Below are positions 35,001-40,055 of a stretch of DNA of 64,000 nucleotides, piece after piece; within the stretch, counting starts at the first letter, position 1; every line of letters begins with the position of its first letter. The notes under the pieces were generated by a model. That model made no database searches, was not told the origin of the DNA, and saw only the letters and a list, made by a program, of their open reading frames with translations. This DNA is from Kangiella sediminilitoris (GTDB lineage: Bacteria; Pseudomonadota; Gammaproteobacteria; Enterobacterales; Kangiellaceae), in NCBI RefSeq assembly GCF_001708405.1, contig NZ_CP012418.1:1116001-1180000 (forward strand), given 5' to 3'. The position numbers and the translations under genes were made by a program.

Positions 35001-35910
35001 GGAAGAGAAACCCAAAAAAGTAGCTAAGACCAAACAAAGGAAAAAAGCGAAATTAGAGAATGTGACTTATACCGACTGGCCTACCGAATATACAAGAGAG
35101 TCCAGTATGGAAGAGGCGGGCGTTGATTTTCCTGTATTTAACGCTTTGGAAGATGCGGTTAATAAAGTCCGTATTGTACCGGTAGTTAACAAGAAACAGG
35201 CAGAAAAAATTCATATCAAGGGTGTATGCAGGTTAATCGCTCTGGCTGAGCAAAAGACTTTTGGTTATTTGCAGAAAAAATATCATAATCGTCAGCAGCT
35301 CATGCTCGCCTGTGCTTCGCTGTATTCAGCTGAAGACCTGATAAATGATGTAATGATGTCCGTGATTAAGAGTTATGTTTCTGACAATGTTCCTTATGAT
35401 GAAGATGCATTTAATGAATGCCTTAAACAAGTCGAAAAAATGCTGGTACCAGAGGCCAATAAAGTTCTTGATCAGTTAGTTGGTACTTTGAAAGCAAGAA
35501 ATAGCTGTCTAAGTAATATCAAGGCCATGGGAAAAAACTTTAAGGCAGCATATGATGACATTAAGGTTCAACTGGACTATCTATTCCAGCCTGGATTTTG
35601 CTATCGATTTGGTGTTGACCACATTCGTGACTATGCACGTTACCTCAAGGCAATTGAGCTGAGAATTGAAAGAATACAACACAACCCTCTCAAAGATGTG
35701 CAATTACAGCAAACGTTTAAACCATGGCAAGATGAAATGCTTGAGTTGGAAAAGGATAATAAGATTCCACAGTTTGAGGTAGATGAGTATGGTTGGATGT
35801 TGCAGGAGTTCAGGATTTCTCTATTTGCTCAAGGGCAGAAAACTCGTTTTCCTATTTCTCATAAACGACTGCAAAAGTTTCTGGACCGTCTCAATAAAGA
35901 ATATATTTAG
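32026..35910 (+). CDS. hrpA: ATP-dependent RNA helicase HrpA
   Basis: This 1294-residue DEAH-box helicase has Walker A AGETGSGKTTQIPK, the DEAH box IIDEAHERSLN, SAT motif ITSATID, and motif VI QRKGRCGRVAEG. It then has the HA2 and OB-fold domains and the long HrpA-specific DUF3418 C-terminus. Length is close to the E. coli protein. HrpA proteins act in mRNA processing and ribosome rescue. The final four bases overlap the end of the convergent diguanylate cyclase gene. Confidence 0.97.
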   Translation: MTDNITSGTSLEDCLLSDIDTIKKLKQAIAKRQKQGQPASKLEDKLERILQTSSNIVQGRSNAIPSVIEFDDSLPVSQSRQKVAQLIRDNQVVVIAGETGSGKTTQIPKICLELGLGRRGRIGHTQPRRVAATSVSRRIAEELKTDIGHVVGFNIRFNDQTNSVTPVKVMTDGVLLNEIIHDPLLLQYEAIIIDEAHERSLNIDFLLGYLKRLLNKRPDLKLIITSATIDVESFARHFGQKGEPAPVLEISGRTYPVDVWYRPNDEENPLPQTDQIGHAVQEIMAYGPGDILIFLPGEADIRDTAKLLRKESYQQCEVLPLYARLSISEQEKIFKPSGGKRRIVLATNVAETSITVPGIRYVIDPGLARISRYSVRSKIQRLPIEKISQASANQRKGRCGRVAEGVCIRLYSEEDFDERKEFTDAEILRTNLAAVILQMKQLKLGDVQDFPFINPPEERQVSDGLTLLNELQALESNKKLTPIGKKMARLPIEPRLARILLAGEEKKYLNYALVLAAFLSVKDPREWPFDKKEKAQQKHSKYKHKTSDFIAIINLWNYLHEQQSDLSNSAFRRYCKEELINFNAYREWKSTYRQLKSLMQNQTGKHKNPKEWKTAEFDQEDPVFYQQLHQVLLTGLLSFIGQKDIEKGYLGTRQSKFMIHPQSINFKKQPPWLVTFEIVETTQPYARMTAAIEPNWLEHIASHLIKTHYYDAHWSKNRGAVVANMQQTLLGLKIVSNRTVNYSSVEPDLCRELFIRHALVRQELDSKQPFHQHNVEVKKQVEQEIAKARQADLWADEHDIVNWFELQLPKSIINVKTLNKWLKKDPQKNNKMLSITPKVLLPEEQEDKGLYPESIEVKGVELKLKYHFEPGHEKDGVTVKLPQSLTSQFTDADFERLVPGLLEEKIEFLIRSLPKRFRKNFVPIPQFAKACYEKVLTSKGRLIDIITHHLFTMTGVILPMEAWSELNLPEHFLMRFEVVNDEGSLLYSTRTLEEKPKKVAKTKQRKKAKLENVTYTDWPTEYTRESSMEEAGVDFPVFNALEDAVNKVRIVPVVNKKQAEKIHIKGVCRLIALAEQKTFGYLQKKYHNRQQLMLACASLYSAEDLINDVMMSVIKSYVSDNVPYDEDAFNECLKQVEKMLVPEANKVLDQLVGTLKARNSCLSNIKAMGKNFKAAYDDIKVQLDYLFQPGFCYRFGVDHIRDYARYLKAIELRIERIQHNPLKDVQLQQTFKPWQDEMLELEKDNKIPQFEVDEYGWMLQEFRISLFAQGQKTRFPISHKRLQKFLDRLNKEYI

Positions 35911-37181
35911 TTAGCGCTCTGAGCGACTCGACCAGTGATCACTCGGTTACGGCCAGACTCTTTAGCCTGGTAAAGTCGCCTGTCCGCTTCCTCTATCATG
36001 CTTCCTAAATCTCTCTCGAGTGTTGAATTAATGCCAATGCTTACCGTCACCTGTAATGTGTAGTCTTCTGCTCTTATAATTGTTTCTGAAATTTTCTGGC
36101 GAAGCTTTTCAAAGTACATATTCGCATGCTCAGCCGGCATGCCTGTCATATACATGCAGAACTCTTCACCTCCAAATCGGGCAACGATATCTGACTTACG
36201 TACCGATTTTTTTAAAATTTTAGCGACTTCTCTCAGTACCGCATCACCCACTGTATGCCCATAGGAGTCATTAACATCTTTAAATTTATCTATATCGATC
36301 ATAGCGCAGGTAACCGCAGCATTCTGGCGTACCATTGAGTCATGCATAGTATCGGTAACGTCGAAGAAGTGTCTACGGTTAGGGATGCCGGTTAAGTAAT
36401 CGTTACTAGCCGCTGTGGCAAGTTCTTGGTAAGTGTTTAGTCGATCCATATAAGAGTTAACTCTCAGGTAAAACTCCTCAGCCAAAAAGGATTGTTTGAT
36501 AATAAAGTCATCCGCTCCATGTTTAAGAAACGTTGCAGCCATAAGACTCTGACCTGCGCCTGATACGCCTAATATGGCCAGTTCCTGTTTACTGTATATA
36601 CGACGTAATTTCCTTGTAAGTTCACATCCATCCATACCCGGCATATGAAAGTCTGTGATAACCATTTTGACATCTTGGTGGTACTTGACGTAATCAAATG
36701 CATCCTTTGGGCTAGTAAAGTGAATCAGCTGGTATTGGTGTACCTGTAGCAAGGACTCGAGTACCTTTGCAGATGTTTTTGAGTCATCAACAATAACAAT
36801 TTTATTATTAGGATTCCTATCCAGTCGTTTGATAGTCTCGACTATTTCGTGAGCCACATGCTTATCATTCTTAATAAAGTAATCAATAATCTTTAGGCGC
36901 CAAAAATGCGTACGTAACTTTGCCGTAATATCACTGATAAGCACCATCGTAGGCACTTTGTGCTTTCTGAATAAGTCGACCGACTCACCATCGTTAGATT
37001 CTCTCAGACGATAACTGACTAAGCAGGCATGAATCGTGTTCTTGTCAATTCTTGACAAAATAATTCTTGCTTCATCCAGGCTGTTACAGGTCACGACACC
37101 AAAAGGGGTGTTGTCGATTATTTGCTTCTCTATGAGGGCGCAGAAAAACTTGCTGTCATCTACTATGATGATTTTCTTCAT
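35907..37181 (-). CDS. Response-regulator diguanylate cyclase with two receiver domains
   Basis: This 424-residue protein has the order REC-REC-GGDEF. In the first receiver (1-120) the acidic pocket VDDSK is kept, but the phospho-acceptor position is serine (LVSYRL, residue 56), so it should not be phosphorylated there. The second (about 125-245) has the normal aspartate in VITDFHMPGMDG. The GGDEF domain has the active motif GGEEF and an RKSD inhibitory site five residues before it, so it should make c-di-GMP under feedback control. The ATG at 37181 follows AAGGA; a TTG one codon upstream is less likely. No histidine kinase gene is adjacent. Confidence 0.93.
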   Translation of the reverse strand: MKKIIIVDDSKFFCALIEKQIIDNTPFGVVTCNSLDEARIILSRIDKNTIHACLVSYRLRESNDGESVDLFRKHKVPTMVLISDITAKLRTHFWRLKIIDYFIKNDKHVAHEIVETIKRLDRNPNNKIVIVDDSKTSAKVLESLLQVHQYQLIHFTSPKDAFDYVKYHQDVKMVITDFHMPGMDGCELTRKLRRIYSKQELAILGVSGAGQSLMAATFLKHGADDFIIKQSFLAEEFYLRVNSYMDRLNTYQELATAASNDYLTGIPNRRHFFDVTDTMHDSMVRQNAAVTCAMIDIDKFKDVNDSYGHTVGDAVLREVAKILKKSVRKSDIVARFGGEEFCMYMTGMPAEHANMYFEKLRQKISETIIRAEDYTLQVTVSIGINSTLERDLGSMIEEADRRLYQAKESGRNRVITGRVAQSAN

Positions 37182-37303
37182 CAATTAACGGTCCTTATTG
37201 TTATTACCCAAAGATTATAAAGCGACGTAACTGAGTATTCCTTAAACCGTGTTCGCTTTTGAGTATTTTTCATTAATGCTTACTTTCATATCGCCACAAT
37301 AGG

Positions 37304-37332
37304 TTTTTTTCATTTTTTTTCATTTTTTTTCA
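37304..37332. repeat. Three helically phased T-tracts (predicted curved DNA)
   Basis: T7-8 tracts are separated by CA, repeating every ten bases: positions 37304-37310, 37313-37320 and 37323-37330. In-phase A/T-tracts are the known signature of intrinsic DNA curvature. Confidence 0.8.
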
Positions 37333-37591
37333 GCTGAATTGTAAAATTTCAGCCAAAATTTGTCACTGGTTAGACCAAGGAATTGTATAGATATACGACA
37401 CAACATGTTGTAAAAAAGTTCATCACTTGTAAATTTGTGATGCGGTTTTCTTTTATTTTGAGAACTAGCAAGGTATTGATCGTTATTGTTTTTCTTCATT
37501 TATGCATTCCTCTATCGAGGATTCAATAATTCTCAAACCCTATCTTTGACACATCTCGACGTGTGTAAAAAGATCTTTTCAATCCCTTTAA

Positions 37592-37628
37592 ATCCAGTGA
37601 CTTAGGCCTATGACTGGGTCCCTTTTTG
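37592..37628 (+). terminator. Possible attenuator hairpin in the collagen-gene leader
   Basis: ATCCAGT pairs with ACTGGGT around a loop of about 14 bases and is followed by CCCTTTTTG. It lies about 190 bases before the collagen-like gene and downstream of a TTGACA box, so it could prematurely end its transcript. Confidence 0.35.
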
Positions 37629-37811
37629 TCTAATTTCTGGACAATAGACAGGTGATAAAACTCTTAATATATTGAATGCTGAATTACTAACTAATGCTTT
37701 TGTGCATTACAGCGTAATGGGTAAAGGATTGCCAACTTCAGCTTCGTCGTAATGGCTAAAGTCGCGCAAAAAACATGTTCAATAAAGGTATTCAGCGGAG
37801 GGATTTTCCCA

Positions 37812-40055
37812 ATGAAACGTTATCTAGGATTAACTGCGAAAACTGGGGCAGTGCTAGGGCTGCTCCTAAGTTCACAGTTAAGTATTGCAGGCCCCAAAAT
37901 TCATGAGGTTCAACCTTATCCTGCAGCAGAACCCACAAATCTAGTCATCTGGGGGACCGGGTTTGATGATCCAAGTATTTTCTTCGGTACGTATCCTGAT
38001 CCATTAGTGATCAGTGCAGATCAGAGCCCCTGCTCTGATATGGAGTTCAATCCAGCACCACCATTAGATCCAACTGATTTTGATTGTGTGGTTGTGGATC
38101 TTCCTTATGTAAATAATGGTGCTCCAGCAGTTCCATCAGGAGATTATTTATTAAAAATCGTAACTGAAGGAACAAATATTTGTGGAACAAAACCAAGTTC
38201 ATTGACCTTTGAATACATACCTTCAGATTGCTCAGGAGTAAATGCTCAAAATGTATTCTGTTCTGGCGATATGACTGGAGCGGTTGGGGCAACTAACGTT
38301 AGCCTATCCAATCAAGCTAGTAAATGGTCATTCCCAAGCCAGATATACCCTGGTGAATTGGTGACTTTTACTGCTAATCAACCATCAGCTAATGAACTTG
38401 CAATTAACCTGGATGAAGCTAACCTTCATCAGGGATTTGTTATTCACACTTCATGCTCACAACCCCTTCTTTTAGGAGATATATTCGGTAGTTTTGAGTT
38501 AGTTGATTATGTGGGCGATGATTCATCTCAAATTGAAGAAATTGACTTATATGATCTGACTCTTGGTGGAGTAGGTCCACAAGGTCCTGAAGGTCCTCAA
38601 GGCCCACAAGGTAAACAAGGTGAGCAGGGTGACCAGGGTCCTCAAGGTAAAGTAGGTCCTCAAGGTGAAGCTGGTGCTCAAGGTCCTCAGGGTAAAGTAG
38701 GTCCTCAAGGTGAAGCTGGTGCTCAAGGCCCTCAAGGTAAAGTAGGTCCTCAAGGGGAAACTGGTGACACAGGTGCCCAAGGTCCTCAGGGTAAAAAAGG
38801 TGATACTGGTGATACTGGTGCCCAAGGTCCTCAAGGTAAAGTAGGTCCTCAGGGTGAAACCGGTGCCCAAGGTCCTCAAGGTAAAGTAGGTCCTCAAGGG
38901 GATACTGGTGAAACAGGTGCCCAGGGTCCTCAAGGTAAGAAAGGTGACACTGGTGATACTGGTGCTCAAGGTCCTCAAGGTAAAGTAGGTCCTCAGGGTG
39001 AAACTGGTGCCCAGGGTCCTCAAGGTAAAGTAGGTCCTAAAGGTGATACTGGTGACACAGGTGCCCAGGGTCCTCAAGGTAAAAAAGGTGACACTGGTGA
39101 TACTGGTGCCCAAGGTCCTCAAGGTAAAGTAGGTCCTCAGGGTGAAACCGGTGCCCAAGGTCCTCAAGGTAAAGTAGGTCCTAAAGGTGATACTGGTGAC
39201 ACAGGTGCTCAAGGTCCTCAAGGTAAGAAAGGTGACACTGGTGATACTGGTGCTCAAGGTCCTCAAGGTAAAGTAGGTCCTCAGGGTGAAACAGGTGCCC
39301 AGGGTCCTCAAGGTAAAGCCGGTCCTCAGGGTGAAACAGGTGCCCAGGGTCCTCAAGGTAAAGTCGGTCCTCAAGGGGAAACTGGTGATACTGGTGCTCA
39401 AGGTCCTCAAGGTAAGATCGGTCCTAAAGGTGACCAGGGTGACCAAGGTCCTCAGGGTAAAGCCGGTCCTCAAGGGGAAACTGGTGCCCAGGGTCCTCAA
39501 GGTAAAGTAGGTCCTCAAGGTCTGCAAGGTCCTCAAGGTAAGAAAGGTGATACCGGTGACACAGGTGCCCAGGGTCCTCAAGGTAAAGTCGGTCCTCAGG
39601 GTGAAAAAGGTGACCCAGGGGCAGATGGAATCGGATCCAACCTAATGTGCTTCAGTACTGACCAAACTATTGGTAGCCAAGGTAAATTCATGGGCTTAGG
39701 TCAACAGGCAGGAGAGCACGATAGTGTAGGTGTTATCAGTCCGTTTGCCGAAGGAGCTGAGGTACTAACCCTGGTTGTTAAAGCTGCACAGGGCAATAAC
39801 CCTAACTCCGGTATAGCGATGCTCTACCATGACGACCCTAATGGAGCTCACGGTGGTGTACCTGTAGGTTCCTCACCAAATAATGAATGTATTTTAGCTG
39901 ACACTCCTGTAAAAAGTGTCTGTAAAATTACATTCGCCACTAATAACGACCTAGATGTGTTTGATAGCTTAAGTGTGTTTATTCAAACCACTGGTGGTGG
40001 TAGCTTCGAGGGTGGATCAGCGTGTATCTTGATCGACCCAGATGGAACTGAGTAA
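37812..40055 (+). CDS. Exported collagen-like protein with 117 Gly-X-Y triplets
   Basis: This 747-residue protein has a signal peptide ([20 protein letters not shown], ending SQLSIA). The N-terminal domain (about 30-254) starts like an IPT/TIG domain ([17 protein letters not shown]) and has many cysteines. Residues 255-605 are uninterrupted Gly-X-Y triplets dominated by GPQ, GKV, GDT, GAQ, GET and GKK. The C-terminal globular domain (about 606-747) has several cysteines and may nucleate trimers. A triple-helical surface or matrix fibre is expected. No sortase, lipobox or membrane anchor is visible. The ATG at 37812 follows GGAGGG; the frame is open 20 codons further without a ribosome binding site. 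A strong terminator follows. Confidence 0.93.
38574..39626 (+). repeat. Gly-X-Y coding repeat with 144-bp higher-order units
   Basis: The stretch is 1053 bases of nine-base units coding 117 triplets. Superimposed is a 144-base (16-triplet) unit starting at 38790, 38934 and 39078, with a partial fourth at 39222; each starts at GGT-AA(A/G)-AAA. Units differ mostly at third codon positions. The array probably grew by unequal exchange or slippage. Confidence 0.9.

Follow-up and report, generated by a model that had tools for sequence, protein, structure and literature searches.

The diguanylate cyclase and collagen-like gene region

The DNA analysed here, referred to as the window, is a 64,000-nt stretch of the Kangiella sediminilitoris genome (one contig of 2,496,140 bases), corresponding to contig positions 1116001–1180000; all coordinates below are those of the window. 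A 630-bp intergenic region (37182–37811) separates a minus-strand diguanylate cyclase (DGC) gene from a divergent gene for a collagen-like protein, and it holds a series of T-tracts. The features of the locus are as follows.

35907–37181, minus strand: DGC gene, with profile matches to Pfam Response_reg and GGDEF and an ATG at 37181
37215–37220, minus strand: predicted −10 box of the DGC gene, TATAAT
37304–37332, no strand assigned: phased T-tract repeat T7CA T8CA T8CA (10-bp unit, 2.9 copies), from Tandem Repeats Finder, a run search and genome uniqueness
37304–37361, no strand assigned: segment with predicted intrinsic curvature, made up of the three T-tracts and, roughly in phase with them, AATT, AAAATTT and AAAATTT, from its curvature maximum
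37384–37400, minus strand: DGC-side 17-bp motif TGTCGTATATCTATACA (TGTC-N10-ACA), from a pattern scan
37627–37643, minus strand: collagen-side 17-bp motif TGTCCAGAAATTAGACA, from a pattern scan
37627–37650: 24-bp site TGTCTATTGTCCAGAAATTAGACA, containing the collagen-side motif and overlapping the predicted −35 box of the collagen-like gene
37645–37673, plus strand: predicted promoter of the collagen-like gene, TAGACA-17-TATATT, from a promoter scan
37812–40055, plus strand: collagen-like protein gene, divergent from the DGC gene, with profile matches to Collagen repeats and DUF7467

The DGC resembles the CbrR and PleD models, with scores below their cut-offs. Its putative −10 box suggests that transcription starts at about 37208. 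Among the related genomes, the similarly placed box reads TATAAT in G018, G014 and G009 and TACAAT in five species of a distant clade, and it is weaker or differently placed in G001, G005 and G007.

The T-tract repeat reads T7CA-T8CA-T8CA at exactly 37304–37332, with letters and coordinates as given by the first-pass annotation: T7 (37304–37310), CA, T8 (37313–37320), CA, T8 (37323–37330) and CA (37331–37332). Tandem Repeats Finder returned a 10-bp unit in 2.9 copies with 100% matches, and the tract centres are spaced by 9.5 and 10 bp, so that the three tracts stand in helical phase. The distance to the DGC start, earlier put at about 110 bp, is 123 bp from the tract to the ATG. Measured from the putative transcription start, the tracts lie roughly 96–124 bp upstream, between the core promoter and the DGC-side 17-bp motif.

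In the 64-kb window this is the sole triple of A or T runs of at least 5 with centres 9–12 bp apart. Dinucleotide shuffles of the window contained same-letter phased triples in 14 of 600 cases for runs of at least 5, in 1 of 600 for runs of at least 6 and in 0 of 600 for runs of at least 7. The T8CA-T8CA pair CATTTTTTTTCATTTTTTTTCA, with up to 2 mismatches allowed, occurs a single time in the whole genome. Looser in-phase triples (T5-N4-6-T5-N4-6-T5) are found at 6 distinct places in the genome versus 5 for an out-of-phase spacing, and we therefore rejected phased T5 triples as a genome-wide code; across 20 genomes of the genus there are 138 in-phase versus 98 out-of-phase match rows, overlapping matches counted. 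Because such triples are hardly commoner in phase than out of phase in this genome, the tract is unusual by its length and regularity more than by phasing alone. The T8CA repeat, even when relaxed to runs of 5, was found in none of the 700-bp regions upstream of the 13 other DGC orthologues in the genus. The perfect repeat, a lineage-specific form, probably arose by slippage or duplication in a bend already rich in A/T-tracts. Phase variation through slippage, proposed earlier for these repeats, is not supported by their place far ahead of the predicted core promoter, in a comparison of one genome per species.

No terminator-like site was found at the T-tract. The inverted repeat GCTGAA...TTCAGC beside it was rejected as a terminator since its minus-strand reading is followed by A's and not by T's, and the fold around the tract is no better than that of shuffles (z = −0.26). 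A known RNA was also rejected, as the three matches in 36900–38000 all fell far below their gathering scores.

Predicted curvature in the window and across the genus

Curvature was computed in three ways, with two wedge-type tables and with an AA/TT-only version. The full wedge table gave a 63-bp maximum of 126 degrees centred at 37330, the highest of the window, and the top 63-bp and 125-bp values of the window both fell at 37330–37332; at 31 and 42 bp, other places in the window equal or exceed the tract. The AA/TT-only version placed the tract ahead of the rest of the window at 42 and 63 bp and not at 31 and 125 bp, and by the second wedge table the DGC-upstream gap is the most curved of the 8 gaps of at least 150 bp. 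When the steps of the tract were set straight, the peak fell to about half in two models (from 126 to 65 and from 109 to 55), and when its 29 letters were shuffled the real peak was reached in 1 of 500 and 0 of 500 cases. Bent DNA, as suggested in the first-pass annotation, is supported as a prediction by all three calculations. The predicted curved stretch is in fact longer than had been stated, because an AATT (37337–37340) and two AAAATTT (37343–37349 and 37355–37361) roughly extend the phase beyond the T-tracts.

For comparison across the genus we used the DGC, which had matches in 41 of 41 genomes and full-length orthologues of at least 45% identity in 14 of the 20 genus genomes, K. sediminilitoris included; the closest named relatives by DGC protein are K. 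shandongensis (82%) and K. taiwanensis (74%). This gave 14 DGC upstream regions, our own and those of 13 orthologues. In 10 of them a divergent collagen-like gene is the neighbour of the DGC. Gly-X-Y repeats show this directly for seven regions, each in a large stretch; the three remaining cases were judged from loci whose upstream region is identical, one such locus being truncated. The other four had no Gly-X-Y frame in the 1.5 kb upstream of the DGC.

Curvature peaks between −280 and −30, with p-values against dinucleotide shuffles in parentheses, were 124 (0.004) in K. sediminilitoris and 130 (0.001), 102 (0.032), 128 (0.001) and 123 (0.002) in the close relatives G018, G001, G005 and G007. 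The distant clade gave 85 (0.085) in G011, 86 (0.087) in G013, 67 (0.53) in G003, 103 (0.015) in G006 and 103 (0.010) in G019, and the species without a collagen-like neighbour gave 89 (0.033) in G014, 81 (0.034) in G009, 69 (0.52) in G010 and 50 (0.95) in G012. All 4 close relatives, 2 of the 5 distant-clade species and 2 of the 4 species that lack the collagen-like neighbour therefore reach p < 0.05; these p-values are uncorrected and are not independent tests, because the region was chosen after the peaks had been seen and the species are related. As two of the four species without the neighbour also reach p of about 0.03, the curvature signal is not specific to the DGC/collagen-like arrangement.

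In seven genomes we also ranked by curvature the intergenic gaps of at least 150 bp in the 60–64 kb around the DGC. The DGC-upstream gap came 1 of 8 in K. sediminilitoris, 1 of 9 in G018, 3 of 13 in G001, 1 of 9 in G005, 1 of 11 in G007, 2 of 14 in G013 and 2 of 15 in G019, that is, within the first three in 7 of 7 genomes and in both models, a rank that is helped by the length of the gap, which inflates its maximum. When the 700 bp upstream are taken as a whole, 7 of the 10 DGC/collagen-like regions have their top peak between the DGC-side 17-bp motif and the DGC start. G001, G011 and G013 have it elsewhere, and in G001 and G013 the curvature maximum of the gap is on the collagen side. At the spot where K. 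sediminilitoris has the repeat, K. shandongensis carries A7, A3TA4, A8 and A5. By these models, the close relatives seem to keep a bend at about the same place though the letters differ.

The paired 17-bp motif and the collagen-like gene

The pattern [TC]GTC-N9-[ATG]ACA, read on the DGC-sense strand over the 600 bp that precede the DGC, has exactly two matches in each of the 10 DGC/collagen-like regions, versus shuffle means of 0.01–0.075, and none in the four regions without the collagen-like neighbour; since the pattern was derived from the same sequences, the 10/10 count describes them and does not test it. The two copies are 234–258 bp apart, one adjoining the predicted collagen-like promoter and the other 192–233 bp before the DGC start. 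The TATATT of that promoter is invariant in the 9 of 10 regions that were aligned.

The 24-bp collagen-side site, with up to 1 mismatch, gave 30 match rows in 15 of the 20 genus genomes versus 26 for a reversed control, and we rejected it as a marker of a wider regulon. Its 6 exact matches are all at collagen-like genes, and none of six other loci with the site (L065, L074, L075, L077, L078 and L084) has a Gly-X-Y frame. In two further loci, L072 in G008 and L076 in G015, the site precedes a collagen-like gene, with 0 and 1 mismatches, respectively. In the place of the DGC their collagen-like gene has a neighbour that looks lipoprotein-like by eye, and no DGC was found within these 2.5- and 2.9-kb loci. 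Both 17-bp motifs occur in G008, at a distance of 230 bp, together with two curves of 117 and 94 degrees in the intergenic DNA; G015 has a single 17-bp motif, and its five highest curvature peaks all fall outside intergenic DNA.

Several further elements were seen in the region. A perfect 12-bp palindrome, ACAACATGTTGT (37400–37411), adjoins the DGC-side motif. Nine of the 10 DGC/collagen-like regions share a ATGCAAAT-like element located 310–351 bp ahead of the DGC start; in K. sediminilitoris it is the minus-strand AATGCATA (37501–37508), and the G013 version is the palindrome AATGCAAATATGCATT. Within the collagen-like gene, the Gly-X-Y part (38616–39617) is a large tandem array with periods of 45, 99 and 144 bp, and the number of residues in Gly-X-Y runs varies by species, from 219 to 405 in nine untruncated loci. 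The long leader of this gene (37680–37811) contains GGA stretches (AAGGATT at 37724, GGAGGG at 37797) that CsrA might bind, and the genome has two csrA-family matches about 500 bp apart. CsrA sites were rejected, as an AGGA hairpin spotted by eye is absent from the minimum-energy fold and the leader folds no better than its shuffles (z = 0.28).

Possible roles of the bend

These predictions are best read as an upstream promoter region with an intrinsic bend, an element of a familiar kind: we give a probability of roughly 0.45 to the T-tracts forming the centre of a stretch of intrinsic curvature within the regulatory DNA upstream of the DGC gene. What is predicted is the bend and where it lies; the DGC promoter, a regulator and any effect on transcription are inferred. 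Ahead of the DGC core promoter, a static bend would most likely act architecturally: DNA from further upstream could fold back onto RNA polymerase at this promoter, and the folded-back DNA could carry a protein on the 17-bp motif or a protein of the HU/IHF type. The upstream promoter element proposed in the first-pass annotation is plausible as a prediction in this broad form, because a DGC −10 box is predicted and a predicted curve is similarly placed in close relatives. The narrower UP element, the site of the alpha-CTD, is located at about −40 to −60; it is not supported here, as the tract lies outside that range when counted from the putative start.

The suggestion of a nucleoid-protein site divided into two parts. 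H-NS is unlikely, as none of the 20 genus genomes, which include one that is 55% complete, has a PF00816 match, with a positive E. coli control. The MvaT domain had no match in the K. sediminilitoris genome and none in the control genomes either, and an H-NS analogue may be present. For IHF, the protein is plausibly present and the exact site is missing: the genome has four HU/IHF-family matches, with IHF-alpha above its cut-off, whereas a search for exact matches to WATCARNNNNTTR, which we take to be the IHF consensus, gave 11 in the window versus 9.3 expected and none in 37182–37811. The same region offers a possible second upstream DGC promoter, GTGACA-17-TACAAT (37366–37338, minus strand), which scores 10 of 12; a transcript from it would begin shortly ahead of the A-tracts, where it could stutter. 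However, the three promoter-like matches found equal the shuffle mean of 3.0, and the GTGACA hexamer is present only in the nearest relative among nine compared. We regard it as very unlikely that the tract is an HU/IHF-like site or belongs to such a promoter.

The main rival places the bend in the regulation of the collagen-like gene, with a single regulator bound to both 17-bp motifs, which are separated by about 245 bp, looping or bridging the DNA with the help of the curves next to the motifs, and with the DGC merely adjacent or co-regulated. The confinement of the motif pair to regions with the collagen-like gene (10/10 versus 0/4) and the overlap of the collagen-side site with the predicted −35 box are consistent with it, and G008 strengthens it further: motifs and curves kept at a 2.5-kb locus without a DGC imply that both may serve the collagen-like gene. 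Yet the motif pair does not enclose the tract, which is some 480 bp away from the collagen-like start; the spacing of 234–258 bp is no constant number of helical turns, and G015 has its collagen-like gene with a single motif and its top five curvature peaks all outside intergenic DNA. We consider this reading doubtful on balance, while holding it to be the strongest competitor. That the tract is instead a neutral simple repeat in A/T-rich intergenic DNA, with no function beyond general intergenic curvature, would fit the absence of T8CA upstream of all 13 other orthologues, the near-equal numbers of loose in-phase and out-of-phase triples in the genome, and the higher mean curvature of non-coding than of coding DNA in the window (35.9 versus 29.2). 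Against it, the close relatives have a predicted curve made of different letters that stands above composition-matched shuffles, and in-phase triples outnumber out-of-phase ones genus-wide when overlaps are counted. We judge a neutral repeat to be unlikely.

The bent upstream region favoured here has relatives among known systems. Katayama et al. (2013), a paper cited in PMC4132750, reportedly described three A/T-tracts that are spaced by about one helical turn ahead of a promoter and bound by the RNA polymerase alpha subunit; the tracts are similarly spaced in Kangiella, but those of Katayama et al. are said to abut the −35 box, whereas the Kangiella tracts lie about 96–124 bp upstream of the putative start. 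Intrinsically curved DNA upstream of promoters has long been known; the sources consulted are PMC6070653, PMC3940949 and PMC4132750. One of them describes a putative curved region upstream of the E. coli regulatory gene rcsA that is involved in repression by H-NS (PMC6070653), a similar location for a curve but with a protein whose PF00816 domain was not found in the 20 Kangiella genomes. Another ties A/T runs at the helical period in prokaryotes to intrinsic curvature (PMC3940949); the Kangiella tract shares that period, although there the signal is statistical and genome-wide and here it is one local, near-perfect repeat. A search of a literature collection with few subscription journals found no paper on Kangiella with collagen-like proteins or with diguanylate cyclases.

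By itself, a bend made by phased A-tracts ahead of a promoter is nothing out of the ordinary, and the Kangiella tract is a good example and no new kind. A bolder proposal, which we offer as speculation and think improbable, makes the intergenic region a compact switch in which one regulator, bound to both 17-bp motifs at a distance of about 245 bp and aided by the bends beside them, would jointly control a c-di-GMP synthase and a collagen-like adhesin, selection keeping the bend while its letters change. The paired 17-bp motif provides a concrete handle for finding the regulator. If true, this would be a natural case of a bend under selection despite sequence turnover, at the promoter of a second-messenger enzyme beside a collagen-like protein.
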